NCBI GenBank assembly: GCA_025451675.1 | Contig: JANWJZ010000077.1 | Location: 62,001-126,000, forward strand | DNA: 64,000 nt | DNA from: Halanaerobiales bacterium | Lineage (GTDB): Bacteria; Bacillota; Halanaerobiia; Halanaerobiales; DTU029 | Reading direction: 5' to 3' | Shown here: piece after piece, positions 7,227 through 10,185 of the stretch | Layout: each line of letters begins with the position of its first letter | Position numbering within the stretch: position 1 is the first letter of the stretch | Translations under genes and position numbers: made by a program | The notes under the pieces: generated by a model | Seen by the model: only the letters and a program-made list of their open reading frames with translations | What the model was told of the DNA's origin: nothing | The model's database searches: none

Positions 7227-7243
7227 ATTTTATAAAACATGTA

Positions 7244-7271
7244 AAAAAAACCCCATTAAGGGGTTTTTCTT
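7244..7271. terminator. Hairpin terminator, probably bidirectional
   Basis: AAAAAACCCC-attaa-GGGGTTTTTCTT between convergent units. Confidence 0.75.
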
Positions 7272-7273
7272 AT

Positions 7274-7429
7274 TTAGACAGCATAGTTTTCCTTGCTTTT
7301 TTCCATTGTTAATATTTTATCATAGGTTTTCCTGTCCTTAAATTCTTCTTTCTTGCCATGATTCCACTGAGATACCGGTGTTAAAAAACCAACTACTCTG
7401 GAATAAATCTCACATTTTTGTCTTTTCAT
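7274..7429 (-). CDS. Small protein resembling the C-terminal glycyl-radical segment of class III (anaerobic) RNR
   Basis: Manual translation of an ORF absent from the track: MKRQKCEIYSRVVGFLTPVSQWNHGKKEEFKDRKTYDKILTMEKSKENYAV*; SD GGGGAGGT upstream; RVxG(Y/F)L...WNxGKxEEFxxR resembles NrdD C-termini; follows nrdG. Confidence 0.8.
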   Translation of the reverse strand: MKRQKCEIYSRVVGFLTPVSQWNHGKKEEFKDRKTYDKILTMEKSKENYAV

Positions 7430-7445
7430 TTATTAAGACCTCCCC

Positions 7446-8141
7446 TTAATTTCTTATCCCTACTTTTTTTATATAGTTATTGGCTATATCTTTAAACTCC
7501 TCCAGTACAGCAGGAGGAAAGCCATTCAGTCCCATTAAATCAGGATTAAAAGTATTATTCGGCCTGAAATTTTGTATGAAATATTGTTTACTGCCTTTAA
7601 TTAAATGGACAATATCCAGCAAATCATTTTTGTTATGAATTCCAGGTACAAAAGTTGTGCGGAATTCATAATCTATCTCCGCTTCTTTAATTAGAGAGAT
7701 AGAGTGTAAGATATTGTCAGTGTTTACATTACTCCCGCTAATCTCTTCATATCTATCCAGTGGCCCTTTTATATCCATGGCAATATAATCTATAAGCCTG
7801 TCCTTAAACAATGTTTTAATTAATTCCGGGTTACTGCCATTTGTATCAAGTTTAATATCCAGGCCAATTTTTTTTATCTTTACTAAAAAATCATATAAGT
7901 CAGCCTGTAGAGTTGGTTCTCCGCCCGTGATACTTATACCATCAATTAAACCTTTTCTTTTCTTCAGAAAACCGAAGATATAGTCCTGGGGAAAATATTC
8001 CCTGTCACAGCTTTCCAGAGCAATCAGTTCTGAATTATGACAATAGGGGCACTTAAAATTACAACCCTGTGTGAAAAGAACAGAAACTATTTTCCCCGGA
8101 TATTCGATTAGACTGGTTTTCTGTAATCCAGTAATCTTCAT
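7446..8141 (-). CDS. nrdG: Anaerobic ribonucleoside-triphosphate reductase activating protein
   Basis: Radical SAM CNFKCPYCHN; SLIEYPGKIVSVLFTQGCNFKCPYCHN; adjacent to nrdD. Confidence 0.92.
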   Translation of the reverse strand: MKITGLQKTSLIEYPGKIVSVLFTQGCNFKCPYCHNSELIALESCDREYFPQDYIFGFLKKRKGLIDGISITGGEPTLQADLYDFLVKIKKIGLDIKLDTNGSNPELIKTLFKDRLIDYIAMDIKGPLDRYEEISGSNVNTDNILHSISLIKEAEIDYEFRTTFVPGIHNKNDLLDIVHLIKGSKQYFIQNFRPNNTFNPDLMGLNGFPPAVLEEFKDIANNYIKKVGIRN

Positions 8142-8160
8142 GGTAAAATCCTCACTATAT

Positions 8161-10185
8161 TTATGCTATATCTGGCTGATAACCCATTTCGGCATCACAT
8201 TTTGGACAATATTCGTGTTCTCCGGCCAGGTAGCCATGCACTGGACAGATACTAAATGTAGGTGTAATCGTGAAATAAGGCAGTTTGAAATTTTCAGCAA
8301 TCCTCTTGACCAGTAATTTGGTACTTTCTTTAGATGGCATTTTTTCCCCGATGAAGCCATGGAGTACTGTACCTCCGGTATATTTTGATTGTAATTCATC
8401 CTGTAATTCCAGTGCTGTAAATATATCATCAGTATAACCTACTGGAAGATGGGTAGAGTTAGTATAATATGGATGAGCACCCTCATACCTTACCCTTTCC
8501 TCATTGGCCACAATAATATCATTGAATTTTTCTTTATCCAGCCTGGCAAAACGATAGGAGGTACCTTCAGCAGGAGTAGCCTCCAGGTTATAAAGATTAT
8601 CTGTTTCCTCCTGGAACTCAATCATTTTATCTCTCATGAAATCTAGAACTTCCAGGGCAAAAGTTAAACCTTCATCGCTGCCAATATCCTTGCCCATGAA
8701 ATTTAATAAAGCTTCATTCATTCCATTGATACCGATTGTACTGAAGTGATTTTGCCAGTATCTGTTGAATCTCTTCTTAACATCCCTCAGATAGAATTTT
8801 GAATAGGGATAGAGTCCGTCTTCTGTAAAACGTTCCAGGACTTTACGTTTAATCTCCAGGCTGTTTTTGGCAGCTTCCATCAATCTTTCCAGGTTGCTGA
8901 AAAATTCTTTCTTTGTGCTGGATAGATAACCGATCCGAGGTAAATTTATTGTCACAACACCTATGCTTCCGGTCATTGGGTTGGCACCAAAAAGCCCGCC
9001 ACCGCGTTTCCTTAATTCCCGGTTATCCAGTCTAAGACGGCAACACATTGATCTGGCATCATCTGGATCCATATCAGAATTTATGAAATTGGAGAAATAG
9101 GGAATACCATATTTAGCGGTCATTTCCCAGATAGGATCATATAAGGGGTTATCCCAGTCAAAATCCTTTGTAATATTATAAGTAGGTATTGGGAAAGAGA
9201 AGACCCTGCCTTTAGCATCTCCTTCAAGCATCACTTCAGCAAAGGCCTTATTGATCATATCCATTTCCTTCTGGAATTCTCCAAAGGTTTTGTCCATTGC
9301 TTTACCACCGATAATTGCTGGTTGTTGGGCGATAGAAGGAGAAGGAACCAGGTCCATGGTAATATTTGTAAAGGGTGTCTGGAACCCAACCCGGGTAGGA
9401 ACATTCATGTTATAAATAAATTCCTGCATGGCCTGTTTTACTTCGTCGTAGGATAATTGATCGTAATATACAAATGGTGCCAGATAAGTATCAAAATTGG
9501 CAAAGGCCTGGGCGCCGGCTGCTTCGCCCTGTAGGGTATAAAAGAAATTGACTATCTGTCCAAGGGCTGTCCGGAAATGTTTAGGGGGTTTGCTCTCCAC
9601 TTTTGTGCTTACGCCACCAAAACCCGTAAGTAATAAATCATGCAGGTCCCAGCCACAGCAATATACTGATAAGGCGTTTAAATCATGGATATGTATATCA
9701 CCGGAAATATGAAGTTCTCTAATTTCGCGGGGATAAACCTCCTGTAACCAGTATTGACTGGTTATTTCAGAAGAAATATGATTATTTAGCCCCTGTAATG
9801 AAAAACTCATATTGCTATTTTCATTAACCTTCCAGTCACTACGGTCCAGGTATCTATCAATTATATTTAAAGCCTCGCTTAATACTTTTTTGGTATCCCT
9901 GAATTTAGCCCGTTGTTCTCGATAGAGGATATAGGCTTTGGCTATATCAGAATAACCTTTTTCGATTAATATCTTTTCTACCAGATCTTGTATTTGCTCA
10001 ACATGAGGAATACCACCATCTCTAAAAAAGATATTCAGATAGGATAAGACCGCCTTGGTTACATCTTCAGCAATATCTTCATCGGTAATATTTACTGCTT
10101 TGCTGGCTTTATAGACAGCATTTTTTATTTTTGTTTCATCAAAAGGCACCTTTCTCCCATCTCTCTTTTTGATGTACCGTATCAT
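8161..10185 (-). CDS. nrdD: Anaerobic (class III) ribonucleoside-triphosphate reductase, lacking the C-terminal glycyl-radical segment
   Basis: N-terminal ATP-cone (YIKKRDGRKVPFDETKIKNAV); NrdD core (SMCCRLRLDNRELRKRGGGLFGANPMTGSIGVVTINLPRIGYL); C-terminal zinc motif CPVHGYLAGEHEYCPKC, then stop. Confidence 0.95.
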   Translation of the reverse strand: MIRYIKKRDGRKVPFDETKIKNAVYKASKAVNITDEDIAEDVTKAVLSYLNIFFRDGGIPHVEQIQDLVEKILIEKGYSDIAKAYILYREQRAKFRDTKKVLSEALNIIDRYLDRSDWKVNENSNMSFSLQGLNNHISSEITSQYWLQEVYPREIRELHISGDIHIHDLNALSVYCCGWDLHDLLLTGFGGVSTKVESKPPKHFRTALGQIVNFFYTLQGEAAGAQAFANFDTYLAPFVYYDQLSYDEVKQAMQEFIYNMNVPTRVGFQTPFTNITMDLVPSPSIAQQPAIIGGKAMDKTFGEFQKEMDMINKAFAEVMLEGDAKGRVFSFPIPTYNITKDFDWDNPLYDPIWEMTAKYGIPYFSNFINSDMDPDDARSMCCRLRLDNRELRKRGGGLFGANPMTGSIGVVTINLPRIGYLSSTKKEFFSNLERLMEAAKNSLEIKRKVLERFTEDGLYPYSKFYLRDVKKRFNRYWQNHFSTIGINGMNEALLNFMGKDIGSDEGLTFALEVLDFMRDKMIEFQEETDNLYNLEATPAEGTSYRFARLDKEKFNDIIVANEERVRYEGAHPYYTNSTHLPVGYTDDIFTALELQDELQSKYTGGTVLHGFIGEKMPSKESTKLLVKRIAENFKLPYFTITPTFSICPVHGYLAGEHEYCPKCDAEMGYQPDIA

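Follow-up and report, generated by a model that had tools for sequence, protein, structure and literature searches.

A predicted class III ribonucleotide reductase of three polypeptides in a Halanaerobiales bacterium, with the glycyl-radical segment on a separate 51-aa protein

Results

Organization of the locus

This study focused on a class III ribonucleotide reductase (RNR) locus within a window of 64,000 nucleotides, the whole stretch of DNA that was analysed, taken from a Halanaerobiales draft genome. The genes lie on the minus strand in the order nrdD, nrdG, a gap of 16 nt with the sequence GGGGAGG, a 51-aa ORF and a terminator-like hairpin (Table 1). A preliminary description of this DNA had reported a NrdD with an ATP-cone, a catalytic core and a zinc motif that stops before any RVxGY segment, followed 16 nt past nrdG by a small ORF with a strong Shine-Dalgarno sequence. 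The coordinates and translations of the former were confirmed, and the latter is present, its GGGGAGG being a consensus match only. The NrdD core ends 11 residues past the last cysteine of the zinc site with no RVxGY, and the break point falls between the zinc motif and the glycyl hairpin. The catalytic motifs of the core are intact, and an alignment of 30 relatives shows them to be invariant. The core retains NEN at residue 121, resembling the NxN flap, Cys176/177, and, in the finger-loop region, MCCR, a motif described for the RNRdb subclass NrdDh4 in PMC4493059, where a comparable zinc motif is also described for T. maritima NrdD.

Table 1. Features of the class III RNR locus, with positions in the window.
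Feature	Position	Strand	Basis or remark
NrdD core, 674 aa	8161..10185	-	ATP-cone, 10-stranded barrel and Zn motif; without glycyl-radical segment
ATP-cone, NrdD residues 4-93	9907..10176	-	PF03477, E 6e-24
Finger-loop MCCR motif, NrdD residues 380-383	9037..9048	-	Cys381/Cys382 invariant in 30 aligned relatives
Putative Zn-binding motif C647-x2-H-x9-C660-x2-C663	8197..8247	-	Sequence; compare T. maritima NrdD
nrdG, radical SAM activase, 231 aa	7446..8141	-	TIGR02495 NrdG2, 212 bits (cut-off 131)
Shine-Dalgarno-like GGGGAGG ahead of tail gene	7439..7445	-	Consensus match only
Tail gene for a lone glycyl-radical domain of 51 aa, proposed as third subunit	7274..7429	-	NRDD 530-562, E 6.5e-10
Gly14 codon, predicted glycyl-radical residue in RVVGFL	7388..7390	-	G14 invariant among aligned standalone tails
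Terminator-like hairpin and T-run 3' of tail gene, AACCCCTTAATGGGGTTTTTTTT	7243..7269	-	Sequence, predicted

Two pieces of one family model

In profile searches the core covers positions 1-529 of the 562 in Pfam NRDD (E 3.6e-192) and the 51-aa ORF, which the preliminary description had proposed to compare with NrdD C-termini, covers 530-562 (E 6.5e-10); with TIGR02487 the core covers 1-548 and the tail 549-580, again without overlap. Core and tail together tile one family model with neither overlap nor gap, which confirms the earlier claim of a class III RNR split so that the glycyl-radical segment is encoded by a separate gene. The core scores above the family cut-offs (in brackets) for PF13597 at 640 bits (26), TIGR02487 at 550 (326) and NF006126 at 1078 (548), the last being a PRK08270-type equivalog match. 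By profile and by sequence, the glycyl-radical motif is not at the C-terminus of the NrdD chain but on the separate ORF, and the small protein matched NrdD families only in the profile search, with no match to the PFL or GrcA families.

A fused NrdD elsewhere in the genome had been named beforehand as a finding that would undermine the split, and in the 90%-complete draft no NRDD sequence was found beyond the core and the 51-aa tail. The second NrdD-like match covers the ATP-cone stretch only, in an 806-aa frame that is probably a class II RNR. With such an enzyme possibly also present in the 90%-complete draft, the supply of dNTPs need not hinge on the class III enzyme.

Structure models

The AlphaFold2 model of the core alone (pLDDT 82.9) was closest to the NrdDs of known structure from P. 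copri, S. thermophilus, T. maritima and T4. Its zinc domain scored 63-66 by blocks, against 89-91 in a fused relative (L094), the two models being built from different alignments, and the glycyl hairpin of the fused relative scored about 89. The finger loop was weak in both. These models agree with a C-terminal domain of the core that would need the tail.

Conservation across the class

Within the class, both halves were found in 41 of 59 genomes, the core only in two, the tail only in two and neither in 14; the tail is a standalone ORF in 43. Core and tail co-occur (Fisher p 1e-9, a value that ignores shared ancestry). Of the exceptions, one core-only genome has its core cut by a contig end (G011) and the other has a fragmented core (G008), while one tail-only genome has its tail at a contig edge and is 76% complete (G031). 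In the other (G048) the core has been lost and a 24-residue remnant of the tail still carries the glycine; this remnant (L185:3657-3731) adjoins a serine-recombinase/TnpB-type element. The fused NrdDs seen in the class are only distant ones (about 30% identity, 708-710 aa) and occur in few genomes.

Between the window and genome G002 the tail differs at 13 of 99 bases, 11 of them at third positions (dN 0.013, dS 1.32), and it is under strong purifying selection with dN/dS near 0.01. As a separate observation, the NrdDs of many relatives (L025-L027, L030-L032, G056 and others) contain probable inteins, giving frames of 860-1556 aa, near residues 280, 365-382 and 603-610.

The split in other lineages and its origin

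Phyla other than that of the window were covered through named loci and plasmids, and among them the split is present in Pseudomonadota, Campylobacterota, CPR bacteria and archaea. A standalone tail adjoins the core in named genomes of Dojkabacteria, Thermoplasmatota, Micrarchaeota, Woesearchaeota, Diapherotrites, Altiarchaeota and Desulfuromonadales, and the split occurs also on plasmids of Paracoccus, Cupriavidus, Bradyrhizobium, Aquabacterium, Azospira, Cereibacter and Sulfuricurvum. In C. necator H16 the core is followed by a 66-aa tail, WP_011154154, annotated 'nrdD', and then nrdG. The accessible text of PMC2864759 gives the nrdDG genes of this strain as needed for anaerobic denitrifying growth and discusses the locus in both C. 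metallidurans and C. necator H16 as important for anaerobic denitrification; within that text there is no mention of the tail gene alongside nrdDG.

Fused NrdDs of the window's own phylum are ~66% identical to the core and have the same tail segment in place. In a sample of 300 genomes of this phylum, the full-length matches listed outside the class span the whole NRDD model in a single frame. A quick-method tree built from 103 cores (563 columns without the tail) requires at least seven changes between split and fused, and the branches that carry five of these are well supported; a single split that sits on a long or unsupported branch is not to be trusted. The split cores of the class form one clade (support 99), and the plasmid-borne cores of Pseudomonadota and Campylobacterota fall with those of split Diapherotrites and another archaeon in a second (support 100). 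With so many changes of state on the tree, the split is likely to have arisen several times. The order core, tail, nrdG is found in family f9, the sister to the rest of the class, as well as in most split lineages, and the order core, nrdG, tail in the window and in class members other than f9. This fits a stepwise path, from a fused core-tail followed by nrdG, through core, tail, nrdG, to core, nrdG, tail.

Standalone domains in prophages, viruses and other cells

Two genomes of the class (G004 and G024), both hosts with a split NrdD, carry a second tail in a prophage. In the first (L183:3805-3954) it is a lone glycyl-radical domain of 43-49 aa between tail-collar and holin/amidase genes, with no core nearby, and it differs from the host tail at 22 of 99 bases and three of 33 residues. 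In the second (L184:2624-3145) the domain is N-terminal in a protein of 173 aa that also has a SLOG (YspA-like) domain, and it lies behind a DnaB helicase gene. Scanning IMG/VR yielded 508 relatives; 80 were kept, ~75 of them standalone ORFs and five fused, and some of the contigs are near-copies. Conservation of the glycine in this set partly reflects how the set was chosen, because the scan pattern partly demands Gly. When larger virus records, mostly fragments, were searched whole, 36 of 37 had the tail without a core. The neighbours tested were phage genes, for terminase, portal, tail fibre, tail tube and endolysin. The remaining one of the 37, a 203-kb virus record (L188), has its own split class III RNR, consisting of a core with a probable intein and a separate 48-aa tail.

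The archaeal virus ANMV-1 (KP703175.1, L279:2686-3120) encodes a 144-aa standalone glycyl-radical domain, and an NrdD core is absent from its 38-kb record. PHROGs contained no family for the standalone domain and gave weak matches to full NrdD only. In a human-gut phage, the NrdD (L280:1009-3438) has a glutaredoxin-like domain fused after the glycyl-radical segment.

Several cellular genomes (G386, G387, G388 and G389-G392) have a NrdD whose two parts share a single frame, and carry in addition one to three standalone copies elsewhere. A spare domain is also found in a member of the Falkowbacteria (L087:4986-5129), inside what appears, with neighbours judged by eye, to be a mraZ-rsmH-ftsL-like cell-division cluster; the accompanying NrdD has core and tail together in one 785-aa frame. 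Longer standalone domains of 107-166 aa (L084, L093, L124, L148 and L260) have an extra cysteine-rich stretch (CHDCG...KCxxCF) ahead of the hairpin, which is probably a zinc ribbon of their own.

Discussion

In strict anaerobes, class III RNR supplies the precursors of DNA; by acting at the radical glycine, oxygen destroys the enzyme irreversibly. The genes described here very probably specify such an enzyme consisting of three chains: a NrdD that lacks its final ~35 residues, NrdG, and a detached glycyl-radical hairpin and C-terminal tail of 51 aa. The tail is most likely an obligate subunit that carries the glycyl radical in trans. The preliminary description had placed the radical on Gly14 of the small protein, and this is supported as the best reading by the complementarity of the two pieces, the fused orthologues at ~66% identity, the occurrence of the pair across the class, the co-occurrence of its members, purifying selection, and the lack of any other source of the glycine in the 90%-complete draft genome. 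The small protein would dock at the site where, in an ordinary NrdD, the C-terminal loop enters the barrel, so that Gly14 would lie beside the finger loop. NrdG would then abstract a hydrogen from Gly14, and the radical would pass to the active-site cysteine as in fused enzymes. Oxygen cuts glycyl-radical proteins at the glycine, and in this arrangement the loss would be limited to the 51-aa protein, which could be replaced alone after oxygen damage, a likely benefit of the split.

The earlier account had described the arrangement as loosely analogous to YfiD. The analogy proves closer than that, given standalone copies in phages and beside fused NrdDs, and yet the protein in the window is better called an obligate subunit than a spare part. 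It might be supposed that it is a repair part only, in the manner of YfiD, for a NrdD that normally uses another radical glycine; the standalone copies just mentioned would suit such a role, and YfiD itself provides a precedent (PMC8683613). However, the core has no glycyl-radical segment of any kind, no fused NrdD is found in the 90%-complete draft of the window's genome, and those of the class are distant and confined to few genomes. For this genome the repair role is largely refuted and is considered very unlikely. A NrdD that is decaying or repurposed, with the small ORF as a remnant and dNTPs coming from a class II RNR, appears very unlikely indeed: a probable class II enzyme does exist in the genome (the 806-aa frame with the ATP-cone match), and relative G048 has lost the core and kept a remnant, but against this stand the intact and invariant catalytic motifs, the dN/dS of the tail, and the retention of the pair across the class and in other phyla.

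The working enzyme could also be a single chain if the pieces were linked post-translationally, as a split intein would do, and apparent inteins do occur in the NrdDs of several relatives (frames of 860-1556 aa with broken matches). There is, however, no room for an intein half in a core that ends so soon after its zinc motif or in a tail of this length, and no further family was matched in either, and joining of this kind was rejected as exceedingly improbable. Detachment of a fused tail by a recent frameshift, or by a mistake in sequencing or assembly, is a general possibility, and a sequencing error had been raised at the outset as a potential refutation. This explanation was ruled out, its probability being practically negligible, since nrdG lies between the pieces and the same layout is conserved in dozens of independently sequenced genomes, in several within one contig.

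With slightly better than even confidence, it is proposed that class III RNR is a general system of exchangeable radical domains, in which the domain is an obligate trans subunit in some lineages, other lineages have a fused enzyme plus chromosomal spares, and the lone domain is widespread in phages and archaeal viruses of anaerobes, where it would keep or restore host RNR activity during infection. By analogy with YfiD, a spare-part role is probable for the domains that stand alone in phages or alongside a fused NrdD. The YfiD study (PMC8683613) includes a speculation by its authors that other glycyl radical enzymes, too, may have spare parts, and these domains are direct candidates for them.

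Class III NrdDs that have been described, such as those of E. coli, T4, T. maritima, P. copri and S. thermophilus, likewise have an ATP-cone, barrel, finger-loop cysteine, zinc motif and NrdG activase, but their radical glycine is on the same chain, whereas in the window a separate protein of 51 aa carries it. YfiD/GrcA and Y06I of T4 are, similarly, small separate glycyl-radical domains copied from the C-terminus of the target enzyme, with a phage example among them (PMC8683613), although YfiD belongs to PFL and repairs the oxygen-cut enzyme, while the domain in the window belongs to NrdD and is the sole source of the glycine there. In P. aeruginosa, NrdJa and NrdJb are also two genes working together, as given in PMC4520616 and PMC9669993, but they form a split class II RNR with another break point and no glycyl radical. 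Phage nrdD genes in pieces were reported by Dwivedi et al. 2013 (PMC3653736), where the breaks are mostly due to introns, inteins and homing endonucleases; here the unit is the glycyl-radical domain alone. The C. necator H16 locus has the same split, but with the tail between core and nrdG and in a distinct split clade of the tree. No earlier description of the split was found in the literature searched, which lay mostly outside subscription papers and RNRdb, where a prior mention is possible.

With the radical glycine on a small separate chain, the domain could be swapped, labelled or mutated separately. Annotation is also affected: tails of ~60 aa are often labelled 'nrdD' by the NCBI pipeline, a label that can now be corrected, and ANMV-1, for which the original paper infers an oxygen-sensitive (anaerobic) RNR encoded by the virus, has this domain only in its 38-kb record.
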